A stretch of DNA of 64,000 nucleotides, taken from assembly GCF_036492835.1 (NCBI RefSeq), contig NZ_AP025316.1:1-64000 (forward strand), given 5' to 3'. Both the position numbers and the translations under genes were made by a program. Under the pieces are notes generated by a model. It ran no database searches, had not been told where the DNA came from, and saw only the letters and a program-made list of their open reading frames with translations. Source of the stretch: Fulvitalea axinellae (lineage in GTDB: Bacteria > Bacteroidota > Bacteroidia > Cytophagales > Cyclobacteriaceae). Below, piece after piece: positions 3,901 through 34,067 of this stretch; positions within the stretch are counted from its first letter, which is position 1, and each line of letters opens with the position of its first letter.

Positions 3901-6900
3901 TTCGGATTCTTGGAAGATATCAATTTCCAGTCGGCGCTCTTCTTGCCGGACGACGGCGAACCGCCGCTCGTGCGTTTGGAAATATCGAATTCGGAAGGCC
4001 GTTATTGGCTTTCGACCAAACCTAGAGACGAGAAAGACGCCAAATGGACACGTCATTCAAACGGTAAGATCAACCACTTCGGCGACAAATACGACTTCAC
4101 TGCGGTTGATTTGGAAGAACTGAAGGAACGTGTACGTTTCCGCCAGCCGATCACGCCGCTTTACAAAGAGCTGAAGCAAGGCGGACTGTTGTACGGCGAT
4201 ACTTTCCGTGCCATCACCGACTTGTGGACTTCGCCGGGCGAAGTGCTTAGCCAAGTGACTTTGCACGATTCTCTTGAGCACGGTATCGAGCGCTACAACC
4301 TGCATCCTGCGGTATTGGACGCTTGTCTGCACACGATTTTCGCCGGAAAACCGAGTACGGCAGAGGAAAAACGCGGCATCTACCTTCCGGTCAGCATGGA
4401 TCGTTATAAGTTCTTTAAGAAACCGGCCTCGAAATCGGTTTGGAACTATGTGAAGCTGAACGAAGTCACTGACAAAATCATCAGCGGAGATCTCCATATT
4501 TTTGACGAAGAAGGTGATTTGGTGGCATTGGTAGACAATGTTCGCTGTAAATACATCGAAGGTTCCAGAGGAGAAAGCCAGCACGACGTTTATGTCGGTA
4601 GCGCGGAGTATCGCTGGAATCTTTTGGAGGAAAAAGGCGAATCTGCCGAAGCTACTGGCAATGCCGTGATTTTTGCCGATGCCAGAGGCGTAAGCGGCGG
4701 AATCGCTACAGCCTTGCAGGCCAAAGGATTGGGTGTCGTTAAGGTGTTCGAAGGAAATGAATTCGAGCGTGTTGACGATACAACCTACCGAGTGAACCCT
4801 ACGGATCAGGAGCAAATCGCCCGTGTTCTGTCTGAAGTTGGAACCGTGGACCGCGTTGTGTACCTGTGGGGAATGCACGAGGAATTCGCCGAGGAAAATA
4901 CCAACCAGGAATTGATCGACAACCAGGCTCGTTTGGCAAGGCGTACGTTCAACACGCTTTGCGCTATCGCCGACGCCGGTTTGAATCCTGAGACCTGGAT
5001 GGTGACTTCGGGTTATGACTTGGTTACCGCGGAAGACGATACTGTAGCTATGGGACAAGCTGTTTTGGCGGGAACCACACGCGTTACCATCAACGAATAT
5101 CCGCATATTCCGATGCGTTTCGTAGACTTCAGCGCTGAGATCACCGACACTGAAATCGCCACTTTCTCGGATGTCGTATTGTTGAAAAACGAAAAGCCGG
5201 CCAACACCGAGTGGGCTTTGCGTGGCGATGACGTTTATGTGAGAAGATTCGAGCACGTTGATCCCGAGGAAGCCGAAACGGAATTCGGTAAAACGAAGAT
5301 GGAAGCTTCTGGCTCGGCCTATCGTGCGGAAGTCTTGACAAGCGGAGATATGGATTCTCTGGTTTACCGTGCTTTCCACGCCGACCAACTTGCTTCGGGC
5401 GATGTTCGTATTGAAGTGAAAGCTTCGGGATTGTCAGAGAGAGACGTTCAGACAGCGGTTGGCCTTCTTGAGGAAGAAGCCGTAGAGGGCGGACTGTCCC
5501 AACAGACTTTGGGTGTGCAGTGCGCTGGCGTGGTGACTGCCGTAAGCGAAAACGTAACGGGAATCAAAGTAGGCGATTCGGTAATGGCTTGGACTGCCAA
5601 CGGCCTGGCCGGAACCGTGACAACTCCGTCGTCTTGTGTGGCGCCAAAACCGGAAAGTTTGGATTGGCAAACCGCGGCGACCGTTCCGGTAGCTTACCTG
5701 ACCGCTTATTATGCGCTCAACCGACTCGCCCAAATTGACGAGGACGACCGCGTATTGATCCACAATGCCACAGGCGGAACCGGGTTGGCGTCTGTTCGCT
5801 TGGCGCAATCGGCGGGAGCGGAAGTATACGCTACCGCGGCGACCGAATCGGGAAGGGATTTTCTGCGTCAGCAAGGCGTTGAGAATGTTTTCGATTCTTC
5901 CGAATTGTCATTCTACGACGCCGTAATGGAAGCCACCGAAGGCCAAGGTGTCGATGTTGTGCTGAACACATTGTCGGGAAAGGCTTTGAGACAAAGCTTG
6001 AAATGCCTCCGCGCGTTCGGCCGTTTCGTAGAGCTTGGCAAAACCGACATTTACAACGACGCTAGCCTCGACCTTAAGCGCTTTGGCGATAACCTGTCTT
6101 ACCATGCGGTGGATATGGACCGGATTATGGCTGGCAAGCCGAAATTGGGCGCCCGTATGTTTGCGGAAGTAACCGCTCTGCTTGATTCCGGAAAAATTAA
6201 GGCAGACGCTCCAAAAGTATTCGAAGCTACCGCAATGGTGGCCGCTTTGAAAACTCAGGCCGAAGCCGATAATATAGGCGATGTGGCCGTCGTGATGGAA
6301 AGCGGTGTTGAGGTTGACGTGTTGCCGGCCCAAAAACTTACGCTCCATAAAGACGGAACATATGTCGTGACCGGTGGCGCTAGCGGAACCGGACTTGAGT
6401 TGGCCAAATGGCTCACCGAAGAAGGCGCTGGCCACTTGGTGTTGATGAGCCGTAGCGGAACAAAATCTGATTACGACCGCGAGGTGATCGCGAAGATGGA
6501 AGAGGCCGGCGTAAAAGTCGATCTTCCGAAAGGCGATATTACCGACTACGAAGCCGTAAAATCCGTATTCGACGGATTGGAAGCGAAAGGTTGGCCAGCG
6601 GTAAGAGGCATTATTCACTCAGCCGGACTTTTGGCTGACGCCACTCTCCCGAGAATGGACGACGAGCGATTCAAGAGCGTTTATAACCCGAAAGTGATCG
6701 GAGCTTGGAACTTGCATAAAGCTTCGGCGGGCCACCCGTTGGATTTCTGCCTTTTCCTTTCTTCTGTTTCTTCGATTTTCGGATTGCCGGGACAGGTGAA
6801 CTATTCTTCGGCCAACAACTTCCTGGATAGGTTGGCAATGCATCGTCAGACTCAGGGCTTGGCCGGTAGCTCGGTGAACCTTGGCGTGATGGGCAATTTT

Positions 6901-8298
6901 GCCGGTATGTCGCGTGAGGGCGGTAACGTAATGAACGTTTTGGGTAACCAAGGCTGGTTGCCGATGACATTCAAATCGGTGAAAACCAAGATTGAGAAGC
7001 TGTTGCTCCAGCGTCGTTCGGCCCGTATGGCGGCGGATATTGACTGGAAGCGTTTCCGTGAGTTCTTTATCCACCTGACTTCCGATGCCAGATTCGCTCA
7101 TTTGCTGACCGATGAAGCCCTGAATGTAAGCGGTTCGGGAAGTGCGGGCGGAACCCTGAAAGACCAGGTGATGGAACTGGAAGGAGAAGCCAGAGAAGCT
7201 TTGCTGACCGAGAAATTGACCGAAGCTTTGGCCAAAATCTTGGGGACATCGCCGGATAAGGTTGATCCGGGAATGTCGATTTCGAAAATCGGCCTCGATT
7301 CCCTGATGCAGACGCAGTTGCGTAACTGGGTTCATCAGAAAGTGGAAGTGAATTATCCGCTGATGAAAATCGCCAAGGGCCCAAGTCTGGCGGAGCTTGC
7401 CGGTAATTTGCTCGAAGAGCTGTCGGCGGTGACCGAAGAAGGAGCCGGCGAAGGCCCTGACGGACGTCCGTTGGTGGTTGGTACATCAAATGACGTGATG
7501 GGACTCACCGACGCTGAGGACGCCGAAGTGTTGGCCAACAAGTATTTGGTCCGAATCAGATCGGCGAAAACGGAAACGGCCAGATTGCGCGTGTTCTGCT
7601 GTCACCCGGTAGGTGCCGGCGCCTCAATGTTCAGCCACTTTATGTACAACGCTCCGGACGACGTGGATATTTACGCCTTCCAGATGCCGGGCCGTGAAAA
7701 CCGTTTGGACGAGGCTTCGCATTCGGATATCCGCCTGTTGGTAGACGAAATGGGCGAGGCTATTCAGCCTTACCTTGACCGTCCGTTCGCCTTGTGGGGG
7801 CACAGCTTCGGCGGAATCGTGATGTTCGAATTGGCGCATCACTTGCGTGAGCAATTCGGCAAAAACGTATCGCACTTCTTCGCGTCGGCTACCATCGCTC
7901 CGCAGTTGACGACAACTTGGAGAAACAGCGACATCATCAGCGAAACCGCCCTGAGGGAAACCTCCGAGCAACGCCTGCTGAGCCTGATGTCGTACATCGA
8001 CGACGAAGACTTCGTGTTGCAGATTCTTCCGATTATGAGAAACGATATGCCGTTGATTATGAACTATCCGTATGCGGACCGCGCTCCGTTGGATTGCTCG
8101 ATTACGGTATTCTCAGCCTTTGAGGACGATGTGGTAACGGCCAAGGAAATGGAGCAATGGGAAATCCAGACAACGGCCAACTTCCGTCAGGAAATCGTAC
8201 ACGGCGACCACTGGTTCTTGAGCAGAAACAGAGACTTCGTTCTTGAAGTCCTTTCCCGAGACCTTTCCGAAGTGATGGATGTAATGGAGCAGAATTGA
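985..8298 (+). CDS. Single-module, fully reducing type I polyketide/fatty acid synthase (copy 1)
   Basis: A 2437-residue multienzyme expected to extend an acyl chain with malonyl units, fully reduce each beta-carbon and release a free acid. Domains: ketosynthase ~18-445 (Cys191 in DTACSSS, His327 in HGTGT, His367); acyltransferase ~548-860 (Ser642 in GHSIGE, His745 in PFHSHH, malonyl-like rather than methylmalonyl-like); dehydratase ~908-1185 (His944, Asp1112 in LDACLH); structural ketoreductase half ~1190-1440; enoyl reductase ~1455-1765 (nucleotide loop near 1593-1606); ketoreductase ~1785-1975 (Ser1927, Tyr1940); ACP (Ser2106 in GLDSLM); alpha/beta-hydrolase thioesterase ~2198-2430 (Ser2274 in GHSFGG, His2409). 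There is no methyltransferase core, loading module or docking tail, so iterative use is likely. In the dehydratase HxxxGxxxxP motif the Gly is Asp. The start at 985 is shared with copy 2 (MNMS). The chain length and product are unknown. Confidence 0.95.
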   Translation: MNMSGKEKTKASETDERDPIAIVGIGCRFPGGVHGPDSYWEALKNGFDGITDVPADRWSTEEYYDPDTTKFGKIKSRKGGFIDTYDQFDPELFGLFPKEAESMDPQQRLLLESTFEAMEDSGTRLEELKGTKTSVFMGVFMNDYWDIQTAPMHRNRITPHIPMGVSLTSIANRISYVFDLKGASVSLDTACSSSLVALHLACRSIWDGEADQSMAGGVALHLKPESWMMLSKGGFLSPDGYCKSFDERANGYVRSEGVGVMMLKPLSKAKADGDDIYALIEGSAVNSDGFTADGYTVPSEIQQTAMLKAAYKDAGINPKEVQFVEAHGTGTKAGDPKETRAFANVFTPEREEGENLVIGSVKSNMGHTEAAAGVAGLIKLTLCIKNRQIPQNLHFQKGNPAIPFDEWKLKVPTELQEWPHPGRRLLGGLNSFGAGGTNAHLVVAEFVSEQTEGKKEDKKREMSLLTLSARSENALRDMADEYVAYLSKTQDSLGLICNNAGKYRSTFEYRLAVAGRTKEQMIESLEAYIAGEDRPGMVASHLPEVKKRKIGFVFSGQGPQWYAMARQLLETEPVFRNVVLEIEKHFTEIAPWSLLEEMMKDEENSSITDTRIAQPAIMAVQIGLMELWKSYGIEPEGVVGHSIGEIAAAYTSGALNLRQATEVIYHRSRGQNKASGAGKMLAVGVTHKEALELIKGKEHQIGIGAINSPNMVTLSGDTGPLEMLATELEEKDIFARFLRVTVPFHSHHMEPLKDDLISSLAHMQGEKAKIALYSTVTGKRESGEHLTSDYWYKNVRMPVYFTDGVSAMIEDGFDTFIEIAPHPVLSQSVVDLLAHHKKDGDVIPSIRRKDDDFLVFTGSVGKLFTIGVEPDWDLAHPATGKADLPGYPFQRSRYWMESDEHMRLRTEARQHPNLLLGTQSGANEDCFVWDIELDKATDPYIEDHQVDDVIIFPGAGHIELATVAGQLSFGEDFGFLEDINFQSALFLPDDGEPPLVRLEISNSEGRYWLSTKPRDEKDAKWTRHSNGKINHFGDKYDFTAVDLEELKERVRFRQPITPLYKELKQGGLLYGDTFRAITDLWTSPGEVLSQVTLHDSLEHGIERYNLHPAVLDACLHTIFAGKPSTAEEKRGIYLPVSMDRYKFFKKPASKSVWNYVKLNEVTDKIISGDLHIFDEEGDLVALVDNVRCKYIEGSRGESQHDVYVGSAEYRWNLLEEKGESAEATGNAVIFADARGVSGGIATALQAKGLGVVKVFEGNEFERVDDTTYRVNPTDQEQIARVLSEVGTVDRVVYLWGMHEEFAEENTNQELIDNQARLARRTFNTLCAIADAGLNPETWMVTSGYDLVTAEDDTVAMGQAVLAGTTRVTINEYPHIPMRFVDFSAEITDTEIATFSDVVLLKNEKPANTEWALRGDDVYVRRFEHVDPEEAETEFGKTKMEASGSAYRAEVLTSGDMDSLVYRAFHADQLASGDVRIEVKASGLSERDVQTAVGLLEEEAVEGGLSQQTLGVQCAGVVTAVSENVTGIKVGDSVMAWTANGLAGTVTTPSSCVAPKPESLDWQTAATVPVAYLTAYYALNRLAQIDEDDRVLIHNATGGTGLASVRLAQSAGAEVYATAATESGRDFLRQQGVENVFDSSELSFYDAVMEATEGQGVDVVLNTLSGKALRQSLKCLRAFGRFVELGKTDIYNDASLDLKRFGDNLSYHAVDMDRIMAGKPKLGARMFAEVTALLDSGKIKADAPKVFEATAMVAALKTQAEADNIGDVAVVMESGVEVDVLPAQKLTLHKDGTYVVTGGASGTGLELAKWLTEEGAGHLVLMSRSGTKSDYDREVIAKMEEAGVKVDLPKGDITDYEAVKSVFDGLEAKGWPAVRGIIHSAGLLADATLPRMDDERFKSVYNPKVIGAWNLHKASAGHPLDFCLFLSSVSSIFGLPGQVNYSSANNFLDRLAMHRQTQGLAGSSVNLGVMGNFAGMSREGGNVMNVLGNQGWLPMTFKSVKTKIEKLLLQRRSARMAADIDWKRFREFFIHLTSDARFAHLLTDEALNVSGSGSAGGTLKDQVMELEGEAREALLTEKLTEALAKILGTSPDKVDPGMSISKIGLDSLMQTQLRNWVHQKVEVNYPLMKIAKGPSLAELAGNLLEELSAVTEEGAGEGPDGRPLVVGTSNDVMGLTDAEDAEVLANKYLVRIRSAKTETARLRVFCCHPVGAGASMFSHFMYNAPDDVDIYAFQMPGRENRLDEASHSDIRLLVDEMGEAIQPYLDRPFALWGHSFGGIVMFELAHHLREQFGKNVSHFFASATIAPQLTTTWRNSDIISETALRETSEQRLLSLMSYIDDEDFVLQILPIMRNDMPLIMNYPYADRAPLDCSITVFSAFEDDVVTAKEMEQWEIQTTANFRQEIVHGDHWFLSRNRDFVLEVLSRDLSEVMDVMEQN

Positions 8299-9349: not shown

Positions 9350-12300
9350 ATGAACATGTCTGAAGAAAAGAAAAAAACGGCATCCTTAGCGGATGGAAAG
9401 GAACCGATCGCAATCGTTGGTATCGGTTGTCGGTTTCCTGGGGGGGTACATGGTCCCAAAGCTTTTTGGGAAGCTCTGAAGAGCGGTTATAACGGCATTA
9501 GTGATGTGCCGGCCGACCGATGGAGCCTTGATGAGTTTTATGACCCGGACGCCAACAAGTTTGGTAAGGTTAAGAGCCGTAAGGGAGGTTTTGTGGATGG
9601 GATCGATCAGTTCGATCCGGAGTTTTTCGGACTGTTTCCAAAAGAGGCTGAAAGGATGGATCCGCAACAGCGTTTGTTGCTCGAATCCACTTTCGAGGCT
9701 ATGGAAGACGCCGGTACGCGTATGGAAGACATTCGTGGCACAAAAACGAGTGTTTTTATCGGGGTGTTTATGAACGATTACTGGGATATCCAGACATCGC
9801 CGATGCACCGCAACCAAATTAGCCCGCACGTACCGATGGGCGTTTCGTTGACTTCTATCGCAAACCGGATTTCTTACGCTTTCGACCTGAAAGGGGCTAG
9901 CGTAAGCCTTGATACTGCTTGTTCTTCGTCTTTGGTGGCTTTGCACTTGGCTTGTCGCAGTATCTGGGATGGCGAGGCCGACCAAGCTTTGACAGGTGGC
10001 GTAAACCTGATTATGCGTCCCGAATCGTGGATCATGCTCTCTAAAGGCGGATTCTTGAGCCCGGACGGACATTGTAAGTCTTTCGATCACCGAGCTAACG
10101 GTTACGTTCGAAGCGAAGGTGTGGGCATGGTTTTGCTGAAACCGCTCTCTAAAGCCATTGCCGACGGTGACGACATTTATAGCGTAATCAACGGTACGGC
10201 CGTAAATTCAGACGGATTTACAAAAGATGGTTATACCGTTCCAAGCCCGGATCAGCAGACAGCTATGCTTCGTGCGGCTTATAAGGACGCTGGCATTGAT
10301 CCTGGGTTGGTTCAGTACGTAGAGGCCCACGGAACAGGTACGCCTACGGGCGACCCGTTGGAGACAAAAGCTTTCTCTAATGTTTTCGCTCCTGGGCGTC
10401 CCGAGGAAGATCCTTTGGTAATCGGTTCCGTTAAAAGTAACGTAGGTCATCTTGAAGCTGCCGCGGGAATTGTTGGCCTGATCAAGCTCGCTTTGAGTGT
10501 GAAGAATCGCGAGATTCCCCAGAACCTTCATTTCCAAAAAGGAAATCCCCGTATTCCGTTTGACGAGTATCGTCTCAAAGTATCGACAGAGCACCAACCT
10601 TGGCCACATTCTGACAGGAAACTGGTAGGTGGTCTGAACTCTTTCGGTGCTGGCGGTACCAATGCTCACGTAGTGATGTCGGAATTTCAGGCTGAGGAAT
10701 CGGCGAAAGAAATTGCCGGTAAGGAAGAAAGGGAGATGAAGCTCTTCGCTATCTCGGCCCGTTCCGAGCAGGCATTGAGAGACTTAGCGGATTCCTACTT
10801 GTCGTTTCTGAGCAAAACAAAAGAATCATTAAGCGTTATATGTAATAATGTAGGAAAGAGACGTTCTGCATTTGAACACCGTTTGGCTGTTGCGGCCCGT
10901 ACAAAAGAGGAACTCGTAGAGTCTTTGGAGGCCTATTTGATCGATGAGACCCGTCCAGGGATGGTTTATCATCATCTGCCGGAGAAACGTAAGCGCAAGA
11001 TCGCGTTCGTTTATTCAGGACAGGGTCCACAGTGGTACGCTATGGCCCGTCAGCTGATCGAGACTGAACCACGTTTCCGCGAAGTGATTCTCGAAATTGA
11101 AAAACTCTTTACGGAATTCGCCCCTTGGTCTTTGCTCGAAGAGCTTCTTAAAGATGAGGAAAGCTCGGCGATTACGGACACTCGCGTAGCCCAGCCGGCC
11201 ATTATGGCTATCCAGATCGCTTTGACGGAGCTTTGGAAAAGCTACGGTATTGAGCCGGACGGAATTGTTGGCCACTCGATTGGCGAGGTTGCGGCAGCAT
11301 ATGCAGCGGGCTCGTTGACTTTGCGTGAAGCTACGGAGGTTGTATATCACAGAAGCCGTGGGCAGAACAAAGCCAGTGGTGCCGGAAAAATGTTGGCCGT
11401 GGCCATTAGCCATAAGGAAGTGCTCAAGCTTCTGAAAGGTAAAGAACACCAGATCGACATTGCGGCGATCAACGGACCGGAAATGCTCACATTGGCCGGA
11501 GACTCCGAGCCTTTGGAGAAACTCGCAGAAGAGTTGGAAGCTAAAGATATTTTCAACCGCTTCCTCCGCGTAAACGTTCCGTTCCACTCGCACCATATGG
11601 ATCAGCTTAAGGACGAGTTGATCGAATCGCTCAACCACCATACCGGCGGTAAGGTGGCGACAACTCCGCTTTACTCAACCGTAACCGGTAAGCAGGAAGA
11701 CGGAACCCATTTGGATAGTGCCTACTGGTATGCTAATGTGCGTATGCCGGTATATTTCACCGACGCCACCGGAGAGATGATCAAGGATGGCTACGATACC
11801 TTTGTGGAAATCGGACCTCACCCGGTACTCTCTCAGTCAGTAAAAGATTTGTTGGCGTTCCACGGCAAAGAAGGTGACTCTACGCCGTCGTTGCGCCGTA
11901 AGGACGATGACTATCGTGTGTTTGCCCGCTCTTTGGGACAGTTGTACGCTTTGGGCGTAGATCTGGATTGGGATGTGATTCACCCTGCCAACGAGCTTAT
12001 CGAGCTTCCGGCTTATCCTTGGCAACATAAATCTTATTGGTTCGAAAGCGACGAGCATCGCCAGATGCGTACGGGCAAGCGTCCGCACCCATATTTGGTT
12101 TCAGGCGAGCGCTCTGGCGCCGACGCCAACCGTTTCGTTTGGAACGTGGAATTGGATAAAGCCGCTGATCCGTTTATCGAGGATCACCAGGTTGACGATG
12201 TGATTATCTTCCCGGGTACCGGTCACTTGGAAATCGCCACCGCAGCGTCTCAATTGTCTTTTGGGGAAGATTTCGGTTTCTTGGAAGATATCAGCTTCCA

Positions 12301-15300
12301 GACAGCGCTCTTCTTGCCGGACGAAGGCGAACCGCCTCATATCCGTTTGGAAATTTCGAACAGCGAAGGCCGTTACTGGATTTCGACCAAGCCTAGAAAC
12401 GATGAAGATGCTGAATGGACGCGCCACTCGTCGGGTAAAGTGAACCACCACGGCGACAATTTCGAATTCGGCAAACTGAATTTGGAAGAAATCCGCCAGC
12501 GTGTTGACTTCCGTCAGCCGATTCAGCCGATGTACAAGGAGCTGAAGCAAGGCGGGTTGCTTTATGGCGACACTTTCCGTGCGATTACCGGTCTTTGGAT
12601 CTCGCCGGGCGAAGTACTGAGCCAAGTGACGCTTCACGACTCGTTGGAGCACGGTATCGACCGCCTGAATATCCACCCGGCTATTCTTGACGCATGTTTG
12701 CACACCATTTTTGCGGGCAAGCAAAGCACCGAGGAAGAGCGTCGCGGTATTTACCTTCCGGTAGGAATCGATCGTTTCAAGGTGTTCAAAAAGCCGGAGA
12801 CGAAGAGCGTTTGGAGTTACGTTAAAGTAACCGAGGCGAGCGAGAAATTCCTGAACGGAGATTTGCAGATCTTCGACGAAAACGGAGAGCTGGTTGCCGT
12901 TGTGGACAACTTGCGTTGTAAATATATCGAAGGTTCTCGTGGTGAGAAGCAAAACGACGTTTACGAAGGTTGCTACGAATACCACTGGGTACTTGCCGAA
13001 GAGGAAATCAAAGGCGACGCAGGAAAAGGCAACGCCGTGATCTTTGCCGACGCGCAGGGCCTTAGCTCTAGAATTTCGGCTCCGCTTGAAGAAAAAGGTC
13101 TGGAAATCCATAAAGTGTTTATGGGCGAAGGCTACGAAAAAGTGGACGGAAATACTTATCGTCTTGATCCGACTGACCAGTCGAACATCGAAAAGATGTT
13201 TAAGGAAATCGGTAAAGTGGATAAGATCGTTTACCTCTGGGGTTCTGATGAGAAATTCTCGGAAGAAATCGAGAATGACGTTTTGGCCAACAGCCAAGGT
13301 CAGCTCGCCTTGCGGACTATCCACACGTTGCGTTCTATCGTAAACTGCGAACTCACTCCGGAAACATGGATGGTGACTTCGGGCTTTGAGCCTGTAAGCG
13401 CCGACGATGACAGCGTTGCCATGGGGCAGGCGATCGTAGCGGCGATGACTCGCGTAATGATCAACGAGTACCCTCAGGTACCGATGCGTTTCGCCGATTT
13501 CAGCGCCGAAATCACCGACGAGGAAGTGGCTCAATTTACCGAGATTGTTACTTGGAAGAGCGAGAAGCCAACAGAAGTCGAGTTTGCGTTGCGTGGGCAA
13601 GACGTATACCTGCGTCGTTTTGAGGCTGTGGATCCGCAAGAAGCCGAAGAAGAATACGGAAAGACGAAAGTAGCCGCTTCCGGAAGCGCTTACCGCGCCG
13701 AGATCCGGGAAACCGGAGACTTGGAGACACTTGCGCTCCGTTCTTACAAGCTTGAGCCATTGGCCGCCGGCGATGTTCGCATCGACGTGAAAGCTGCGGG
13801 CCTTAACGCAAAAGATATCCAAACTGCCAAAGGCGAATTGGACGAGGAAGCCACTCAGGGCGGACTTGGTGCCGATACGCTTGGTTTGGAATGCGCCGGT
13901 GTTGTAACCGCCGTTGGAGAAAACGTGACGGGAATCGCTGTCGGAGACGAAGTGATGGCTTGGACCGCCAATGGTTTTGCTGGCGTCGCCACTAGCCCGG
14001 CGTCATGTGTTGTTAAAAAACCTGAGTCGTTAAGTTGGGAAGAGGCCGCTTCGGTCCCTGTCTCATACCTGACCGCTTATTATTCGCTCAATTATTTGGG
14101 TAGAATTGAGGAAGGCGAAAGAGTGTTGATCCATAACGCCGCCGAAGGTGTAGGACTTGCCGCTGTTCGTTTGGCCGAGCTTTCGGGTGCGGAAGTTATT
14201 GCCACCGCCGCAAGCCAAGAAGAGCGAGATTATCTTTCGGCCGCTGGCGTTAAGCATGTGTTCGACTCGACTGACCTCGCTTTCCACGGCGAAGTGATGA
14301 AAGCCACTGAAGGTCAAGGCGTAGATGTTGTGTTGAATAGCCTTACTGGCAAAGCGCTTACGCAAAGTTTGAAATGCCTCAGGGCTTTCGGTCGTTTTGT
14401 TGAGCTGGGCAAAACAGATATTTATAACGAATCAAGCATCACCCTTAAGCGTTTCGGCGAGAACCTCTCGTTCCATGCCGTTGACCTTGACCGTCTGATG
14501 GCTCAACGCCCGAATTTGGGTAGCCGTTTGTTGGGCGAAGTTGTTGCCTTGTTTGCGGAAGGAAAAATCAAGCCTGAAGCGATTACCGCTTTCGGTATTG
14601 GTGAATTGGCCGAAGCCTTGAAAACGCAGGCCGATACCACAAAAGTGGGTAAAGTGGCCGTAAGCATGGGCGAAGATGCCGACGTGGAAGTCCTTCCAGC
14701 CGAGAAAATCTCTTTCGCTCAGGACGGAACTTATCTCGTAACCGGCGGTGCCAGCGGTACCGGTCTTGAGTTGGCCAAGTGGTTGGCCGACGAAGGGGCG
14801 GGTCACTTGATCTTGCTGAGCCGTAGTGGAGCCAAGTCGGATTACGACCGTGAGGTGATCGCGAATATGGAAAGCAACGGTGTCAAAGTGGATTTGCCGA
14901 AGGCGGATATCATGGACTACGAAGCCGTGAAAGCCGTAATCGACGGGGTAGAGGCGAAAGGATGGCCAGCGTTGCGCGGCGTGATCCACTCTGCCGGTAT
15001 CCTTGCCGACGCCACTTTCCCGAGCATGGACTTGGAGCGTTTCCAGAGAGTATTCAACCCGAAAGTATTGGGTGCCTGGAACATGCACAAAGCTTTGGGT
15101 GACACTAAGCTTGATTTCTTCTTGATGTTGTCGTCGATTTCTTCGGTATTCGGATTGCCTGGGCAGTCGAACTACTCTTCGGCCAACAATTTCTTGGACA
15201 AACTGGCCATGTACCGTCAGCTCAAAGGTTTGGCGGGCAACTCCGTAGACATGGGCGTGATGGGAAGTTTCGCCGGAATGTCACGCGAAGTTGGTAACGT

Positions 15301-16666
15301 CATCAACGTTTTGGGTAACCAAGGTTGGGTGCCGATGACCTTCAAGCAGGTGAAGACCAAGATTGAGAAGCTTTTGCTTCAGCGTCGCGCGGCACGTATG
15401 ACCGCCGATATCGACTGGAAGAGCTTCTGCGAGTTCTTTATCCACCTTACTTCCGACGCCAGGTTTGCGCATCTGCTTACCGACGAGGCGCTGAACGTAG
15501 GCGGTGCGTCCGGTGGCGCCGGCACGCTTAAAGATCAAATCCTTAGCGCTCCTGAAGATACTCGTAAGGATGTGTTGACCGAAAAACTGATCGAGGCTTT
15601 GGCCAAGATTCTCGGTACTTCCCCTGACAAGGTTGATCCTGAGAAGCCGATTTCAAAGATTGGTCTTGACTCGTTGATGCAGACGCAACTCCGTAACTGG
15701 ATCCACCAGAAAGTGGAAGTGAATTATCCTTTGATGAAAATCGCGAAAGGACCGAGCTTGAGCGAACTTTCGGACAGTGTGCTCGCTGAGTTGGAATCAG
15801 CTGAGGTTGAGGCTACTGGCGAAAGCGAAGATAACCGTCCGTTGGTTGTTGGTTCGTCTCAGGATATCATGGGATTGACTGATGCCGAAGACGCAGAGGT
15901 ATTGAACGATTACCTCGTTCATATCAAATCTGAAAAAGCCGAAAACGCTAAGCTTCGCGTATTCTGCTGCCACCCTGTGGGCGCTGGCGCATCGATGTTC
16001 GGTCAGTTTATGTACAACGCTCCGGAAGGGGTCGATTTGTACGCCTTCCAGCTTCCTGGTAGGGAAAACAGGCTGGACGAGCCGTCTCACACCGACATTT
16101 TTGTCGCAATTGACGAGATGATTGACGCGGCCTTGCCGTATATGGACGAGCCGTTTGCGTTATGGGGACACAGCTTCGGAGGTATCGTGATGTTTGAGTT
16201 TGCCCGCAGATTGCGTGAGCGTTTTGACAAACATCCAGTACACTTCTTCGCTTCCGCGACTATCGCTCCGCAACTTACGCATACTTGGAAGAGCAGTACG
16301 ATTATCAGTGAGACCGCCGTTCGTGAAAACACTGAGGCCCGTTTGCTCAGCTTGATGTCCTATATCGACGATGTGGAGTTTGTGAAGCAGATACTTCCTG
16401 TGATGCGTAACGACATGCCGATGATCATGGATTACCCATATGCCGACAAGGAGCCTTTGGCTTGCCCGGTAACGGTATTCTCGGCCGAGGAAGACGAAGT
16501 GGTTACGCCTGCGGAAATGAAGCCGTGGGAAGAGCAAACCGCATCGGAATTCCGTCAGGAAATCGTACACGGTGACCACTGGTTCTTGAGCAGAAACAAA
16601 GACTTTGTTCTTGAAGTGCTTGCCCGAGACTTGGCTGGTCACTTGGAAGCGGTGGAGCAGGATTGA
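9350..16666 (+). CDS. Single-module, fully reducing type I polyketide/fatty acid synthase (copy 2)
   Basis: A 2438-residue paralogue of the preceding gene, with the same domain order and near-equal spacing throughout. Catalytic residues visible: KS Cys191, His327, His367; AT Ser643 and His746; DH His946 and Asp1114; KR SSxSSVFGLPGQSNYSSAN with the catalytic Tyr; ACP Ser2108; TE Ser2275 and a GDHWFL His near the end. All domains therefore look active. Differences from copy 1 are spread along the protein: the ER nucleotide loop reads AAEGVGLAA rather than ATGGTGLAS, and the AT and TE surfaces differ, so substrate or chain length may have diverged. It has its own promoter, leader and terminator and is probably transcribed alone. 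The PPTase at 17542 is the likely activator. Assignment as a polyketide synthase versus a fatty acid synthase cannot be settled from sequence. Confidence 0.95.
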   Translation: MNMSEEKKKTASLADGKEPIAIVGIGCRFPGGVHGPKAFWEALKSGYNGISDVPADRWSLDEFYDPDANKFGKVKSRKGGFVDGIDQFDPEFFGLFPKEAERMDPQQRLLLESTFEAMEDAGTRMEDIRGTKTSVFIGVFMNDYWDIQTSPMHRNQISPHVPMGVSLTSIANRISYAFDLKGASVSLDTACSSSLVALHLACRSIWDGEADQALTGGVNLIMRPESWIMLSKGGFLSPDGHCKSFDHRANGYVRSEGVGMVLLKPLSKAIADGDDIYSVINGTAVNSDGFTKDGYTVPSPDQQTAMLRAAYKDAGIDPGLVQYVEAHGTGTPTGDPLETKAFSNVFAPGRPEEDPLVIGSVKSNVGHLEAAAGIVGLIKLALSVKNREIPQNLHFQKGNPRIPFDEYRLKVSTEHQPWPHSDRKLVGGLNSFGAGGTNAHVVMSEFQAEESAKEIAGKEEREMKLFAISARSEQALRDLADSYLSFLSKTKESLSVICNNVGKRRSAFEHRLAVAARTKEELVESLEAYLIDETRPGMVYHHLPEKRKRKIAFVYSGQGPQWYAMARQLIETEPRFREVILEIEKLFTEFAPWSLLEELLKDEESSAITDTRVAQPAIMAIQIALTELWKSYGIEPDGIVGHSIGEVAAAYAAGSLTLREATEVVYHRSRGQNKASGAGKMLAVAISHKEVLKLLKGKEHQIDIAAINGPEMLTLAGDSEPLEKLAEELEAKDIFNRFLRVNVPFHSHHMDQLKDELIESLNHHTGGKVATTPLYSTVTGKQEDGTHLDSAYWYANVRMPVYFTDATGEMIKDGYDTFVEIGPHPVLSQSVKDLLAFHGKEGDSTPSLRRKDDDYRVFARSLGQLYALGVDLDWDVIHPANELIELPAYPWQHKSYWFESDEHRQMRTGKRPHPYLVSGERSGADANRFVWNVELDKAADPFIEDHQVDDVIIFPGTGHLEIATAASQLSFGEDFGFLEDISFQTALFLPDEGEPPHIRLEISNSEGRYWISTKPRNDEDAEWTRHSSGKVNHHGDNFEFGKLNLEEIRQRVDFRQPIQPMYKELKQGGLLYGDTFRAITGLWISPGEVLSQVTLHDSLEHGIDRLNIHPAILDACLHTIFAGKQSTEEERRGIYLPVGIDRFKVFKKPETKSVWSYVKVTEASEKFLNGDLQIFDENGELVAVVDNLRCKYIEGSRGEKQNDVYEGCYEYHWVLAEEEIKGDAGKGNAVIFADAQGLSSRISAPLEEKGLEIHKVFMGEGYEKVDGNTYRLDPTDQSNIEKMFKEIGKVDKIVYLWGSDEKFSEEIENDVLANSQGQLALRTIHTLRSIVNCELTPETWMVTSGFEPVSADDDSVAMGQAIVAAMTRVMINEYPQVPMRFADFSAEITDEEVAQFTEIVTWKSEKPTEVEFALRGQDVYLRRFEAVDPQEAEEEYGKTKVAASGSAYRAEIRETGDLETLALRSYKLEPLAAGDVRIDVKAAGLNAKDIQTAKGELDEEATQGGLGADTLGLECAGVVTAVGENVTGIAVGDEVMAWTANGFAGVATSPASCVVKKPESLSWEEAASVPVSYLTAYYSLNYLGRIEEGERVLIHNAAEGVGLAAVRLAELSGAEVIATAASQEERDYLSAAGVKHVFDSTDLAFHGEVMKATEGQGVDVVLNSLTGKALTQSLKCLRAFGRFVELGKTDIYNESSITLKRFGENLSFHAVDLDRLMAQRPNLGSRLLGEVVALFAEGKIKPEAITAFGIGELAEALKTQADTTKVGKVAVSMGEDADVEVLPAEKISFAQDGTYLVTGGASGTGLELAKWLADEGAGHLILLSRSGAKSDYDREVIANMESNGVKVDLPKADIMDYEAVKAVIDGVEAKGWPALRGVIHSAGILADATFPSMDLERFQRVFNPKVLGAWNMHKALGDTKLDFFLMLSSISSVFGLPGQSNYSSANNFLDKLAMYRQLKGLAGNSVDMGVMGSFAGMSREVGNVINVLGNQGWVPMTFKQVKTKIEKLLLQRRAARMTADIDWKSFCEFFIHLTSDARFAHLLTDEALNVGGASGGAGTLKDQILSAPEDTRKDVLTEKLIEALAKILGTSPDKVDPEKPISKIGLDSLMQTQLRNWIHQKVEVNYPLMKIAKGPSLSELSDSVLAELESAEVEATGESEDNRPLVVGSSQDIMGLTDAEDAEVLNDYLVHIKSEKAENAKLRVFCCHPVGAGASMFGQFMYNAPEGVDLYAFQLPGRENRLDEPSHTDIFVAIDEMIDAALPYMDEPFALWGHSFGGIVMFEFARRLRERFDKHPVHFFASATIAPQLTHTWKSSTIISETAVRENTEARLLSLMSYIDDVEFVKQILPVMRNDMPMIMDYPYADKEPLACPVTVFSAEEDEVVTPAEMKPWEEQTASEFRQEIVHGDHWFLSRNKDFVLEVLARDLAGHLEAVEQD

Positions 16667-30416: not shown

Positions 30417-31778
30417 ATGGACGAATTAGAGTTTACGGAAAGCGAGTGGAATACCTGCCTTAAAGTTTTGGAGATACTTAAAAACGATCCGCTGAATAAT
30501 CCCGATAACAAGCGCTTCAGTGGCATAATCACCAAGCTCCATAAGAATGCGAAAAAAGCCCTTAATAAAGAGAAAAACGAAAACAGGGCAAGGCAAGACA
30601 AAGAAACCGTTTTTTCATCCGCAATTGCCATGAACGCTTTGGCGGGAGTGAGCTTTTTTAGTGATGGGAAGCCAAAAGAACAGCGATACAAGGCGGTACA
30701 CAATCCACGGAATTGCTATTGCTGTAACAGCCCGTACTACGACGTTCATTCTTTTTATCACAGGCTTTGCCCTGATTGCGCCGAACAGAACTACGCTTGG
30801 CGTTTCCGTTCGCCCGATCTTTCCGGTCGGAATATAATTATTACCGGAGGGCGCGTCAAAGTCGGTTTCGCTACCGCATTACGATTCCTTAGGGCCGGAG
30901 CGAATGTGACGGTTACTACCCGGTTTCCCGCTTTGGCACTGGAAACTTACAGCAAAGAGCCTGATTATTCAGAATGGAAAGACAAGCTTTTCCTTTACGG
31001 ATTGGATTTAAGAAACCTCGGAGCCGTAAAGGAATTCATAACCGAGTATAAGAAGAGATATCCGCATCTAGATATATTGATCAATAACGCCGCGCAAACG
31101 ATCAAATATACGGAGGAGTTTTATCGTCCGATTATCGCCGAAGAGCGAAAGCATTTAGAGAACTTATCTTCAGCCAACCGTTTGTTCAGCGAGAATAAAA
31201 CACCCGTAACCGAAAACGAAACCCGAAGGCTTCCGGCCTCAAGCTTCGACAAAGTATCCCTTACACGCTTCGGGCAACCGGTGGACACAAGACATAAAAA
31301 CAGCTGGAACTCCACTCTTGAGGAAATCGGCGATTATGAATTGTTGGAAGTAAACCTTATCAACCAAATATCCCCTTATCTGATGCTTAGGGAATTGGCT
31401 TCGCATATGAGGAATTCCCCTTATCCGGAACGTTTTGTCATCAACGTGACCTCTTCCGAGGGACAATTCAGTTATTCGAACAAAACGATATATCATCCGC
31501 ATACGAATATGACCAAGGCGGCGCTGAATATGATGACCCGCACGTCTGCCCGAGAGCTTGCCGTAAGCGGAATATTCATGAATGCGGTGGATGTGGGTTG
31601 GATCTCTACCGGTGCGGTGGAATCTCTTCGCAAAAGACAGTTTGAACGAGGGTATATCCCTCCTTTGGATTCTGTGGACGGAGCATCGAGAATCATGCAC
31701 CCCGTGTTTGAATCTCTTATCAATAAAGTTACCTTTGTAGGTAAGTTGTTAAAAAATTACAAGATCGAGAATTGGTAA
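30417..31778 (+). CDS. SDR-fold protein with N-terminal zinc ribbon, beside tRNA-like array
   Basis: 453 residues. Residues ~1-75 are a charged helical region; a zinc-binding knuckle pair follows (Cys100-Tyr-Cys102-Cys103 and Cys118-Pro-Asp-Cys121). From ~135 there is a Rossmann short-chain dehydrogenase fold: the glycine motif TGGRVKVGFATAL (Gly144, Gly145, Gly150), LYGLDLRNL, and DILINNAAQTIKY. At the catalytic YxxxK site the Lys is kept (Lys367, in NMTKAALNMMTRTSARELA), but the position four before it is Thr363, with His362 next to it, so the standard Tyr is absent. A ~60-residue insert separates the NNAAQ strand from the following helix. This is a divergent SDR group whose reaction I do not know. 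The zinc ribbon and the tRNA-like genes just downstream suggest RNA binding; that is inference. Confidence 0.8.
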   Translation: MDELEFTESEWNTCLKVLEILKNDPLNNPDNKRFSGIITKLHKNAKKALNKEKNENRARQDKETVFSSAIAMNALAGVSFFSDGKPKEQRYKAVHNPRNCYCCNSPYYDVHSFYHRLCPDCAEQNYAWRFRSPDLSGRNIIITGGRVKVGFATALRFLRAGANVTVTTRFPALALETYSKEPDYSEWKDKLFLYGLDLRNLGAVKEFITEYKKRYPHLDILINNAAQTIKYTEEFYRPIIAEERKHLENLSSANRLFSENKTPVTENETRRLPASSFDKVSLTRFGQPVDTRHKNSWNSTLEEIGDYELLEVNLINQISPYLMLRELASHMRNSPYPERFVINVTSSEGQFSYSNKTIYHPHTNMTKAALNMMTRTSARELAVSGIFMNAVDVGWISTGAVESLRKRQFERGYIPPLDSVDGASRIMHPVFESLINKVTFVGKLLKNYKIENW

Positions 31779-31813
31779 ATTGCCTGTTCGTTTGATTTTT
31801 TGATAAAATACAT

Positions 31814-31885
31814 GAGCTGGTGGTGTAATTGAAAACATACCTGACAGCCAATCAGGAGATGCGGGTTTGATTCCCGTCCTGCTCT
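31814..31885 (+). tRNA. tRNA-like sequence A, anticodon triplet GCC, atypical
   Basis: 72 nt fold as a cloverleaf: acceptor GAGCTGG/CCTGCTC (one T-T mismatch), D stem GTGT/ACAT, anticodon stem CCTGA/TCAGG (perfect), variable AGAT, T stem GCGGG/CCCGT. The anticodon loop is CAGCCAA, so the triplet at 31847-31849 is GCC (Gly), but the base before it is A where tRNAs have U33. The D loop AATTGAAA lacks the GG pair, and the T loop is TTTGATT. Base 73 is T, as in bacterial tRNA-Gly, and no CCA is encoded. Whether it is charged or translated with is doubtful. Confidence 0.55.
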
Positions 31886-31897
31886 TATGGCTTTGGG

Positions 31898-31969
31898 GAA
31901 GCTGTGGTGTAACTGGAAACACGTCTGACTGTCAATCTTGAGTTACGGGTTCAAGTCCCGTCGGCTTTT
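31898..31969 (+). tRNA. tRNA-like sequence B, anticodon triplet GTC, atypical
   Basis: 72 nt: acceptor GAAGCTG/CGGCTTT (two wobbles), D stem GTGT/ACAC with loop AACTGGAA (GG present), anticodon loop CTGTCAA (U33 present, triplet GTC at 31931-31933), variable AGTT, T stem ACGGG/CCCGT with loop TTCAAGT. The anticodon stem TCTGA/TCTTG has two mismatches and one wobble, unusual for a working tRNA. Base 73 is T rather than the G expected of tRNA-Asp. GGGG at 31895-31898 and CCCC at 31970-31973 could lengthen the acceptor helix. Confidence 0.5.
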
Positions 31970-31986
31970 CCCCTGATACCGCCCAA

Positions 31987-32058
31987 GCGTTTATAGTATA
32001 ACTGGAAATATGACGGATTTCAAATCCGAAGATGCGGGTTCGATTCCCGCTAAACGTT
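31987..32058 (+). tRNA. tRNA-like sequence C, anticodon triplet TCA (would read UGA)
   Basis: 72 nt and the best fold of the three: acceptor GCGTTTA/TAAACGT (one G-T), bases 8-9 TA, D stem GTAT/ATAT with loop AACTGGAA, anticodon stem ACGGA/TCCGA (closing A-A mismatch), loop TTTCAAA, variable AGAT, T stem GCGGG/CCCGC with canonical loop TTCGATT. The triplet at 32020-32022 is TCA, which pairs with UGA. The overall sequence resembles bacterial tRNA-Gly(UCC) with the last anticodon base changed, and base 73 is T. GCCCAA before and TTGGGC after extend the helix to 13 bp, and CTTTTTG follows, so the 3' flank may double as a terminator. At only 72 nt, without a long variable arm, it is not a selenocysteine tRNA. 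Confidence 0.55.
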
Positions 32059-32155
32059 TGGGCTCTTTTTGATAAAAGTATTCTCTTTTCCGGTAAGGCT
32101 TGATATCTTTTCAACCACTCTCCACTCCGAAATACTCTTTATTTAGTACGCACAT

Positions 32156-32911
32156 ATGCCTCATAAACAAAACCATAGGGGAGCTAATCCCAGAGACGCC
32201 AAATCGTTCTCGGACAAACAGCTTCCGGACCTAAAACAAGCGCTTGAACACCTGAATTATCTTCTTTCAAGAGACTATAACCCTAAATCATCCCTGAAAT
32301 TGGTGGGCGACCGGTTCCGTTTTACCGAACGGCAACGCAGGGCTATCGCCCATTCGGCTTGTGGCGAAAAGGAACTAAAGGAAAGGCGGGCAAAACACGT
32401 TAGCGCTGATCAAATTGCGGGAAAGAAAATAGCGGTGGACGGTTATAACCAATTAATCACAATGGAGGCCGCCTTGTCGAAAGCTCCCGTGTTTATCGGT
32501 ACGGACGGCTGCTATCGCGATATTGCCAGTGTGCACGGTACTTACAGAAGGGTAGAGGAGACTATTCCGGCGCTTGAGCTGTTCGCCAAATTTTTTGAGG
32601 AAATGAACCCTGAAAAGGTGCTTTGGGTGTTTGACAAACCCATTTCCAACAGCGGAAGGCTAAAGCAAATGATCCAAACCTTGGCCGACGAAAAGGGATG
32701 GCGCTGGGACGTGACGCTGGATTTTAATCCCGACAAATATATTGCGGAGAAAGAAGGCTGGATAGCCGTTTCCTCAGACAGTTGGGTTTTGGACAATTCT
32801 GACCAATGGCTGAACCTGAACGCCTACCTAATTGACAAGCATGTTCCCGACGCTTGGTTGATTGATTTTGAAAATATCAAAACGGATAACGAATGTAAGT
32901 CTGGAATGTGA
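32156..32911 (+). CDS. DUF434-type protein with PIN-like acidic core
   Basis: 251 residues, soluble. The N-terminal ~90 residues are basic and helical, with VGDRFRFTERQRRAIAHSACG, the segment I associate with DUF434. The rest resembles a PIN-like nuclease fold: IAVDGYNQL (Asp95), a glycine turn with GTDGCYRD (Asp117, Asp122), VLWVFDKPISNSGRLK (Asp160), and IAVSSDSWVLD (Asp208, Asp213). Acidic residues at strand ends of this kind bind metal in PIN RNases. It starts 97 bp after tRNA-like C on the same strand, so it may cut or bind those RNAs. The DUF434 label rests on memory and no substrate is known; the nuclease activity is inference. Confidence 0.7.
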   Translation: MPHKQNHRGANPRDAKSFSDKQLPDLKQALEHLNYLLSRDYNPKSSLKLVGDRFRFTERQRRAIAHSACGEKELKERRAKHVSADQIAGKKIAVDGYNQLITMEAALSKAPVFIGTDGCYRDIASVHGTYRRVEETIPALELFAKFFEEMNPEKVLWVFDKPISNSGRLKQMIQTLADEKGWRWDVTLDFNPDKYIAEKEGWIAVSSDSWVLDNSDQWLNLNAYLIDKHVPDAWLIDFENIKTDNECKSGM

Positions 32912-32986: not shown

Positions 32987-34067
32987 TACCTAACGTGAAC
33001 TTGGAATCGAAATATTAGATTAGTTCAATCGTCATCTTCCTATCCCACTTCCCCAGCTTCTTGGGGAATTTAGGGCATTCAGGTGTTTTGTCAAGGAAAG
33101 TATAAGCGAGTAACGCGGCTATTGTGTTGATTAGAAACCCTTTGACGCTTCTGTGCCTTGAGTGTTCAATCTGGCAAACATGTTTGAGGATATCGAACGC
33201 CGATTCGATTAGCCGCCTGTGCTTCAAATAGTGTTTTTGCTCTTCGGCAAGCATTTCTTTGGGCCTCATTTTACTCCTGAGCTTTGTGACCAAGGTTAGG
33301 CCTTTGCCCCTGAGTTCGTCCCTGAGTTTGGAAATATACCCTTTGTCCCCATAGAGGAACCCTTGCAGGTCTTTGGTGAGTGACCTGAGCATTTTGTGGT
33401 TGTTGTCCGATACATTTCCCGAAGATATCCTGACGACGACCAGCTGTCCGTATTCGTTTATGACGGCATGGAGCTTAAACCCGAAGAACCATCCCATCGA
33501 GCTCTTGCCACGTTTGGCGATTCCGGCGAAAACCCTGTGTTGTTTTATTCTTTTGTTGTGGCACACGGCCAGAGGTTTGGAGTCCACGTAATTGTGGCCT
33601 GTCCGGGGAGACAGCCTGACGGCCTGCATAAAAAGCGTCATGGGAGCGAAAACCCGGTTTGAGGCGGTAAGGAAAGTGGTGTAGTCCGGCAGGTCCGGAA
33701 AGTAGCTTCTCAGGTAAACCATAAGCACGTTGTTGTAGTACCACTTGAAACACCGGATGCCGGAGAGGTGAAAGAATATCAAAACCGTCATGATTTCACT
33801 GTCACTCATCGTCGCGGGCCTACCGGATTTCTTCTGGTTTCCGATTCCTTTCTCCTTGTGGTACTCGTCCAATCGTTTGCAGAAATCGTCGGAAGCGATG
33901 AAAATTTCAGTTAATTTGAGAGTGTCCAGAACGGTCATGTCCAGTTGTGTTTATTCGGTTTGTACAAAAACACAAATAAACAAATACTCAAACATTGATC
34001 TTTCTGGACGATCCCTTCTTTACCTGACTGTATTTGAGTCGGTTAAATTCCAAGCTCACGTTACCTA
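32987..34067. mobile_element. IS982-family insertion sequence with target duplication
   Basis: The element proper is 32993-34061 (1069 bp). Its ends are inverted: ACGTGAACTTGGAAT at 32993-33007, and the complement of ACGTGAGCTTGGAAT at 34047-34061, 14 of 15 matching. It is flanked by a direct repeat TACCTA (32987-32992 and 34062-34067). Removing the element and one TACCTA restores TACCTAATACTTGATACC, a good copy of the dispersed repeat seen at 25729 and 38975. Size, transposase family and duplication length fit IS982. The ends are intact, so it may be mobile. Confidence 0.85.
33015..33938 (-). CDS. IS982-family transposase
   Basis: 307 residues, the usual length for IS982 transposases. It has an N-terminal helical region with GRPATMSDSEIMTVLIFFHL, then the DDE catalytic core: Asp119 (YVDSKPLAVC), Asp198 (GDKGYIS) and Glu245 (RRLIESAFDILKHV). 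The characteristic RVFAGIAKRGKSSMGWFFG and IEHSRHRS stretches are present. The frame is complete from ATG to stop with no frameshift. It fills nearly the whole element between the inverted ends. Confidence 0.95.
   Translation of the reverse strand: MTVLDTLKLTEIFIASDDFCKRLDEYHKEKGIGNQKKSGRPATMSDSEIMTVLIFFHLSGIRCFKWYYNNVLMVYLRSYFPDLPDYTTFLTASNRVFAPMTLFMQAVRLSPRTGHNYVDSKPLAVCHNKRIKQHRVFAGIAKRGKSSMGWFFGFKLHAVINEYGQLVVVRISSGNVSDNNHKMLRSLTKDLQGFLYGDKGYISKLRDELRGKGLTLVTKLRSKMRPKEMLAEEQKHYLKHRRLIESAFDILKHVCQIEHSRHRSVKGFLINTIAALLAYTFLDKTPECPKFPKKLGKWDRKMTIELI

Follow-up and report, generated by a model that had tools for sequence, protein, structure and literature searches.

An SDR-fold protein gene and a distinct class of tRNA-like RNAs form a conserved pair in Fulvitalea axinellae and other bacteria

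The question raised by positions 30417 to 32911 of a Fulvitalea axinellae contig is whether the two protein genes and three tRNA-like RNAs found there belong together and, if so, which of them form the core. The stretch analyzed, called the window here, is the first 64 kb (64,000 nucleotides) of contig NZ_AP025316.1, which is 437 kb long and is one of 15 contigs in an assembly of 7.39 Mb (GCF_036492835.1); the relatives in this analysis are Bacteroidota. On its plus strand lie, in line and with no intervening genes, a gene for a protein with the short-chain dehydrogenase/reductase (SDR) fold, three tRNA-like RNAs, and a gene for a DUF434/DUF5616 protein. A first-pass annotation had described this cassette as an SDR gene, three 72-nt cloverleafs, and a gene with a PIN-like motif, sharing the plus strand and uninterrupted by further genes; open reading frames (ORFs), ARAGORN, Rfam, and Pfam confirmed each of these parts.

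Linkage of the SDR gene and the RNAs

Forty-two loci were compared: the window, 35 relatives found by a contig scan with the SDR, one Deinococcus plasmid, and five loci from an even draw of 395 Bacteroidota genomes, the window's own included. Three actinobacterial plasmid relatives, five weaker plasmid matches, two viral contigs, and 19 places on a longer branch stood outside this set. A same-strand tRNA-like gene lay within 320 nt of the SDR gene in 38 of the 42 loci and within 60 nt in 32, with a median distance to the nearest RNA of 17 nt over the 38. All 71 RNAs within 320 nt were on the strand of the SDR gene and none was opposite. As a control, other ORFs of at least 150 aa from the same loci were scored in the same way; only 8 of 206 had a same-strand tRNA within 60 nt, and 6 of these 8 were of the GGAA type described below. 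The RNAs lie 3′ of the SDR gene in the window, Kordia, Aquimarina, Aureivirga, and others, and 5′ of it in Chryseobacterium, Arcicella, Chitinophaga, Deinococcus, and others; in two sister species they flank it on both sides. Up to seven adjacent RNAs were found per locus.

A quick tree of the SDR proteins (63 rows, midpoint root, with long-branch warnings) united 35 of the 37 RNA-bearing rows in one branch (SH-aLRT 98); on its other side were the 26 rows without RNA and two RNA-bearing rows (L018 and L050). Locus L049, whose SDR frame contains three stops, was left out of the tree, and its RNA was still counted. In this Chryseobacterium locus the SDR gene and several of its neighbors are broken up, and the adjacent tRNA-like RNA is intact. 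The five other close-branch loci from the even draw all carried two or three RNAs. At 19 even-draw places on the longer sister branch, no tRNA was found in flanks of up to 1.5 kb (one of them, L073, lies at a contig end and has a short flank).

We conclude that the SDR and the RNAs are the conserved core, a genetically tied pair. Their tie is wider than that of either to DUF434. The close SDR branch was present in 6 of the 395 genomes, and in all six a DUF5616 match shares the contig of the SDR match, from which it is separated by approximately 0.06 to 3.7 kb. DUF5616 was found in 17 of the 395 genomes, however, 11 of which had no close-branch SDR, and DUF434 was clustered near the SDR in 8 of 40 loci (the window included), as well as in all five further even-draw loci. 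Two accounts of DUF434 were considered and rejected. It is not the main conserved partner of the RNAs, as 15 of the 16 other DUF5616 loci had no tRNA in their 1.5-kb flanks; nor is it unlinked to the SDR, as larger stretches placed it near the SDR in all five further close-branch genomes.

A distinct class of tRNA-like RNAs

The class comprised the 85 SDR-adjacent RNAs picked by ARAGORN, which favors tRNA-like folds. These were compared with other tRNAs of the same loci and with 115 host tRNAs called by ARAGORN in 26 stretches around Rfam matches; a host tRNA-like sequence matched by Rfam only (C1:2166792) was left out. Where unique sequences were counted, the numbers were 83 for the class, 175 for other locus tRNAs, and 55 for the host.

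A D-loop containing GGAA was present in 78 of the 85 class RNAs; none of the 115 host tRNAs had it, and neither did the other tRNAs of the loci except for 14 of 207. Of those 14, eight were tRNAs for Cys whose variable region is long, and several of the rest were class-like and lay slightly further from the SDR gene. All 20 groups, among them Deinococcus and Sericytochromatia, contained one or more RNAs with GGAA. An acceptor stem of 8 bp was found in 43 of the 83 class sequences (the other 40 had 7 bp), compared with 1 of 55 host tRNAs and 5 of 175 other locus tRNAs. In seven-base anticodon loops, uridine 33 (U33) was present in only 45 of 80 class RNAs, whereas it was present in all 115 host tRNAs and in 197 of 206 other locus tRNAs; five of the 85 class RNAs had anticodon loops of six or eight bases. 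CCA is encoded by some of the class RNAs (L045, L047, and L050).

A MAFFT alignment (A4) of 67 of the 85 adjacent RNAs, from which near-duplicate loci and odd lengths were left out, returned the cloverleaf in RNAalifold. In this alignment 94.8% of the cells were paired, compared with 39.6–48.7% in slid controls; double-sided changes occurred in 20 of 21 pairs, and compensatory change was seen in all four stems. These results demonstrated that the RNAs are tRNA-like RNAs of a class of their own, whose structure is maintained. Because of the linkage and the covariation, we consider the arrangement of the cassette to be more than chance. The features described above suggest that these tRNA look-alikes are probably not used in protein synthesis.

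Bodies that are almost the same frequently bear anticodon arms with no likeness to each other. Among the 25 closest aligned pairs of the 67 sequences (body difference of 0.15 or less; the pairs are not independent), nine had anticodon loops that differed at no fewer than 57% of their positions. In the pair L025 and L032, for example, the bodies differed by 5%, the anticodon loops by 57%, and the stems of the arm by 70%. When the frame of ARAGORN was used instead, 30 of 66 close-body pairs had an exchanged arm, whereas array tRNAs gave 1 of 269 and host tRNAs 0 of 17; because register shifts in Chryseobacterium and Kordia rows inflate the 30 of 66, the alignment-based count is the safer of the two. 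Between the sister species represented by L061 and L062, the three adjacent RNAs are identical except at four positions, of which three lie in one anticodon loop and the fourth in that of another RNA. In all, 25 different anticodon calls were made in 81 class sequences. Near-constant RNA bodies thus carry differing anticodon arms.

The three RNAs of the window were the only ARAGORN calls in its 64 kb, as Gly(gcc), Asp(gtc), and SeC(tca). Each is 72 nt long by the Rfam bounds, with gaps of 12 and 17 nt between them, and their scores of 50.4, 51.6, and 64.4 bits are above the Rfam tRNA gathering cut-off of 29. RNA 1 (31814..31885, plus strand, anticodon gcc) has A33 instead of U33, a D-loop without GG, and a 7-bp acceptor stem with one mismatch; its T-loop reads TTTGATT, the cloverleaf with a TTCRA T-loop being otherwise kept in the class. 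RNA 2 (31897..31970, plus strand; Rfam 31898-31969; anticodon gtc) has U33, a GGAA D-loop, an 8-bp acceptor stem in the ARAGORN fold, and a weak anticodon stem. RNA 3 (31986..32059, plus strand; Rfam 31987-32058; anticodon tca) likewise has U33, a GGAA D-loop, and an 8-bp acceptor stem in the ARAGORN fold; its variable loop has four bases and is not the long variable arm of tRNA-Sec. Among at least 118 tRNA-family matches in the assembly (150 of 406 candidates scored), only these three lay off contig C1, and their identity to the 55 different host tRNAs was at most 0.64.

An attempt to capture the GGAA class with a DNA pattern was discarded as too loose: at least 239 of the 395 genomes matched it, at rates that were by eye about those of a backward control. 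The pattern misses the window RNAs, and it catches SDR-adjacent RNAs in three genomes (G202, G289, and G277) and a host tRNA-like sequence linked to a slipin gene. Arrays of 4–20 further, mostly ordinary tRNAs were present in Kordia loci (L026-L031 and L055) and Chryseobacterium loci (L039-L043, L049, L052, L056, and L059); their content differs between species, and the counts are lower bounds because they are limited by the ends of the pieces.

The two proteins and their neighbors

The SDR-fold protein (453 aa; 30417..31778, plus strand) matched the Pfam families adh_short (8e-22, above cut-off) and adh_short_C2 (3e-19). Its N-terminal region contains a zinc-ribbon-like CYxC...LCxxC motif at residues 100-121 (30714..30779, plus strand), where a DUF2039 match fell below its cut-off; C100, C103, C118, and C121 are invariant across 22 aligned SDR relatives. 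The motif was found in 35 of the 37 RNA-bearing rows of the tree, compared with 7 of the 26 others. A stretch of approximately 70 residues separates the parts matched by Pfam or NCBIfam (139-229 and 303-406). The family retains the Rossmann core, the NNAA motif (NNAAQT in the window), and the active-site lysine of YxxxK. The usual glycine-rich nucleotide loop, however, is replaced by TGGRxKxG, and the position of the catalytic tyrosine is occupied by Thr363, which is invariant in the 22 rows and lies within HPHTNMxK (HPHTNMTK in the window). All 63 tree rows had HPHTNM or HAHTNM; this motif guided the choice of frame for 22 rows and excluded none. The protein therefore has the Rossmann-type profile and NNAG-type motif of classical SDR oxidoreductases but not their YxxxK catalytic pair. 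Because the catalytic tyrosine is missing, classical SDR chemistry by this family appears unlikely.

The second protein (251 aa; 32156..32911, plus strand) matched DUF434 (3e-15) and DUF5616 (8e-50), both above cut-off. In the DUF5616 part, eight acidic residues and one asparagine (D95, N98, E104, D117, D122, D160, D193, D208, and D213), among others, are invariant in 17 relatives. The order of the residues VDGYN, VFD, and SSD resembles that of NYN/PIN-type nucleases. The likeness is one of motif and not of fold, and the DUF434/DUF5616 profile matched no solved chain by sequence up to an E of 1. No literature on DUF5616 was found among open-access papers; a candidate source for DUF434, PMC4431377, concerns DUF4343.

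In one genome (G312; L003/L087, C4 ~113167-113580) the DUF5616 gene contains one in-frame TGA, and suppression of UGA by a tca RNA was considered. Because the adjacent RNAs of that genome have no tca anticodon and the copy in its sister species (G088) is open, this idea was rejected, and a broken gene or a sequencing error is likelier. A phage origin of the proteins was also rejected: DUF434 had no match in 50,697 phage records, and the SDR had one, covering 25% of the query.

Neighboring genes were surveyed in 40 loci, in which the neighbors were partly scanned and clusters were named from one representative each. The clusters included RtcB in 5 loci, RlaP (two types) in 6, an RNase_T exonuclease in 10, DUF434 in 8, and a T4 Rnl2-type ligase in 3; 16 of the 40 loci had at least one of these five. 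Combinations of repair genes vary among Kordia, Aquimarina, Dokdonia, Lacinutrix, and some Chryseobacterium loci. In the even draw, at least one repair cluster was present in all five loci and a ligase in four. Locus L087 reads RlaP, RlaP, DUF434, Rnl2, a protein of approximately 228 aa, an M90 peptidase, and RNA-SDR-RNA-RNA, and L088 has the same order; L089 has an Rnl1-type ligase, L090 has RtcB, and L091 has DUF434 and the ~228-aa protein alone. RlaP was found in 5 of the 6 genomes with a close-branch SDR, compared with 30 of 395 overall, and a slipin relative in 4 of the 6 (20 of 395 overall), in three of them approximately 17–21 kb from the SDR. The first-pass suggestion of a repair or defense unit agrees with the RNA-repair neighbors of many loci. 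Among the anti-phage defense families of PADLOC-DB, none was matched by the SDR or the DUF434/DUF5616 protein at E values up to 1.

The ~228-aa protein (205-236 aa; neighbor cluster C1, L028:4277-4984) occurred in 11 of the 40 loci; in many loci it lies directly 5′ of the SDR or beside DUF434. It matched no Pfam family above cut-off and is perhaps a core part of the system. The genes beside Chryseobacterium modules L039-L043, L052, and L056 resemble MoxR-vWA-bpX conflict systems. Matches to bpX4 and HipA_C lie beside the RNAs in L038, and L035 has a RelA_SpoT match.

Beside the window cassette, DUF434 is the sole repair-type gene. The host chromosome (C1:2158000-2176999; L167) contains an RNA-repair island with a band-7/slipin gene, RtcB, two RlaP genes, and, judged by eye, a WYL-type regulator. 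The DNA 5′ of this slipin gene contains T-arm, hairpin, and D-arm pieces that appear by eye to be tRNA-likes in concatenated or permuted form, GGAA being present in the D-loop of one of them. Runs of tRNA-like pieces with weak Rfam tRNA matches lie 5′ of slipin genes in L170 and L178. In this look the slipin-linked tRNA-likes of L167, L170, and L178 are unlike the plain cloverleaves of the SDR class, although folding does not single it out (z −0.62). Among the 26 of 34 slipin-adjacent Rfam tRNA matches that were listed, only the host's own had a GGAA D-loop.

Directly past the cassette is a DDE, IS-type transposase gene (33015-33938, minus strand). Elsewhere in the window, two similar polyketide synthases of approximately 2437 aa each are encoded in tandem (985-8298 and 9350-16666); both have ketosynthase, acyltransferase, dehydratase, zinc-dehydrogenase-type, KR, carrier, and thioesterase domains.

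Proposed function and comparison with known systems

On balance, we think it probable that the SDR and the RNAs form a ribonucleoprotein module belonging to islands of RNA repair or translation conflict, in which the variable arm serves as bait, sensor, or scaffold. The SDR, which has a zinc ribbon and an altered nucleotide loop, may be an RNA-binding scaffold that recognizes the constant body of the RNA at the elbow and acceptor. The variable anticodon arm would then be presented to tRNA-cleaving enzymes as a bait, a decoy, or a sensor of damage. The DUF434/DUF5616 protein is a candidate nuclease that could trim or cut the captured RNA, which nucleotidyltransferases (NTases) and ligases would then mend; in the window's host these might be supplied by the chromosomal island with its slipin, RtcB, and two RlaP genes. 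We put forward only tentatively, as a possibility that may well fail, the complete scheme of a modular bait-and-repair machine against tRNA-cutting enzymes, composed of non-translating RNAs with a GGAA elbow, often an 8-bp acceptor, and exchangeable arms, an SDR without the classical active site, a PIN/NYN-like nuclease, and repair enzymes. The earlier proposal that the two proteins process, modify, or use the RNAs gains from the pairing of SDR and RNAs in 38 of the 42 loci; modification by the SDR, however, is doubtful with the catalytic tyrosine gone.

Several observations weigh against the ribonucleoprotein module. With respect to the linkage, 4 of the 42 loci (L048, L051, L053, and L058) had no adjacent RNA, and neither did the three actinobacterial plasmid relatives; a lax Rfam search of the four loci and two of the three plasmid relatives also found no tRNA. 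On the viral contigs, L085 had no tRNA call and L086 had one, on the opposite strand and with a D-loop without GG. With respect to the RNAs, the anticodon stem of RNA 2 contains mismatches, and single-sequence folding of RNAs 1–3 was unremarkable (z −1.43, 0.02, and −1.57). Because the slipin-linked tRNA-like on the host chromosome (C1:2166792) also reads GGAA, this mark is not found exclusively in the SDR class; and because 45 of the 80 loops have kept U33, some of the RNAs may be used in translation. As to the SDR, conserved residues His360, His362, Thr363, and Lys367 could form an alternative active site, and the serine site was Ser in 30 of the 37 RNA-bearing rows (Ala in two, and five misread by the pattern), whereas it was Ala in all 26 rows without RNA; because of these residues, we can only infer that the protein has no catalytic activity. 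Finally, 24 of the 40 loci, including Deinococcus, Chitinophagaceae, and several Chryseobacterium, had no repair cluster among their partly scanned neighbors.

The main rival explanation is a protein-only enzyme that processes or cuts tRNA, similar to human mitochondrial RNase P, with the tRNA-likes as its substrates or cofactors. In that enzyme, PRORP is the NYN/PIN-like nuclease and SDR5C1 is a tRNA-binding subunit. In the window the RNAs do lie between an SDR that lacks the classical tyrosine and a protein of PIN/NYN-like type with invariant acidic residues in DUF5616, and SDR5C1 is required for cleavage although its enzymatic activity is not, according to the accessible part of PMC10602865. 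DUF434, however, is near the SDR in only part of the loci (8 of 40, and 5 of 5 in the even draw), 11 of 17 DUF5616 genomes have no close SDR, and the assignment to PIN/NYN is by motif alone, with no solved chain matched up to an E of 1. We therefore regard this explanation as unlikely.

Another explanation, which we consider quite unlikely, is that the RNAs are working replacement or suppressor tRNAs on a mobile element, sustaining translation when the tRNAs of the host are cut, with the SDR as a tRNA-binding helper. The cloverleaf and the TTCRA T-loop are retained, CCA is encoded in L045, L047, and L050, and ordinary tRNA arrays come after the module in Kordia. There is also a precedent in the trn operon/TrcR regulon of Anabaena, for which the available portion of PMC10272220 describes a silent plasmid tRNA array that is activated by translational stress and has a repressor in common with rtcB and a slipin gene. 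Working tRNAs are hard to reconcile, however, with the absence of U33 from 35 of 80 seven-base loops, with the loops of six or eight bases in 5 of 85 RNAs, with 8-bp acceptor stems and a GGAA D-loop that are rare in other tRNAs of the same loci, or with 25 different anticodon calls in 81 sequences.

It is very unlikely that the RNAs are instead a cis-acting tRNA mimic, an element in the SDR transcript that the SDR binds to control its own expression. In nine Chryseobacterium loci, one tRNA-like does end 10–11 nt 5′ of the SDR start codon (the SDR of L049 being the broken one), and many other RNAs lie 3–57 nt from the SDR gene; but there are up to seven RNAs per locus, on either side and often with different arms, and a leader element need not so diversify. 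That the RNAs are leftovers, either decayed tRNA genes at integration sites or remnants of old tRNA arrays hitch-hiking with a mobile gene, is highly improbable, for although RNAs 1 and 2 of the window have odd features, RNA 2 folds no better than shuffles, and an IS-type transposase lies at 33015-33938, the class shows compensatory change in each of the four stems, the GGAA mark occurs in one or more RNAs of all 20 groups, the strand is constant and the spacing to the SDR close, and the window RNAs are at most 0.64 identical to the 55 different host tRNAs.

If the ribonucleoprotein module is correct, bacteria hold a family of RNAs that are shaped like tRNAs but stand outside translation, whose anticodon arms are exchangeable and whose partner has a dehydrogenase fold, and the small set of repair ribonucleoproteins built on tRNA mimics gains a member. 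It would also be another case, besides mitochondrial RNase P, of an SDR that serves tRNA-shaped RNA and not redox chemistry, and it would hint at a function for DUF434/DUF5616. Because the class has a simple GGAA mark and a clear genetic linkage, it lends itself to immediate testing by pull-down and small-RNA sequencing. No description of the SDR/tRNA-like pair was found in the open-access literature (most subscription papers being outside this scope), including the accessible parts of PMC6514570, PMC7790460, PMC10272220, and PMC7824862.

The individual parts can be compared with several known systems. Compared with a classical SDR such as ElxO (4qec), the protein has the same Rossmann core, NNAA motif, and lysine of YxxxK; it differs in the threonine that replaces tyrosine in HPHTNMxK, the TGGRxKxG loop, the N-terminal zinc-ribbon region, and the stretch of approximately 70 residues. 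The TRMT10C-SDR5C1-PRORP complex of human mitochondrial RNase P also combines an SDR subunit with a nuclease partner of NYN/PIN-like type. Here, however, the SDR carries a zinc ribbon and the genes adjoin their RNAs, and there is no evidence of orthology, no search for a TRMT10C counterpart having been made. The Anabaena trn operon is similar in its plasmid-borne extra tRNA genes, co-regulated with rtcB and slipin; it differs in that its RNAs are described as a tRNA array, and a dehydrogenase goes unmentioned in the accessible part of that paper (PMC10272220).

The closest comparison is with repair systems that have their own tRNA-like RNAs. In the Ro60/Rsr-Y RNA-RtcB system a protein is paired with a tRNA-like RNA in repair operons, according to the available portion of PMC7790460, and RlaP acts with RNA ligases and a ROT/TROVE protein that has a tRNA-like partner, according to that of PMC7824862. 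As far as these portions show, the likeness to the present system lies in the context of ligase and RlaP and in a protein with its own tRNA-like RNA, and the difference is that here a zinc-ribbon SDR is the partner of RNAs that fold as plain cloverleaves, have GGAA in the D-loop, and differ in their anticodon arms. The SPFH/band-7 system, to which the same likeness and difference apply, is reportedly likewise found in repair operons and joins a protein to a tRNA-like RNA (Burroughs and Aravind are said to have described it in 2016). In the loci analyzed here a dedicated tRNA-like RNA lies beside its protein, and the linkage to ligase and RlaP is present in part of them; in the genome of the window these genes are on the chromosome and not beside the SDR. 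The SDR/RNA pair shares the setting of the known repair systems, with a different protein and a different class of RNA, and it would extend the theme of repair systems with cognate tRNA-like RNAs.

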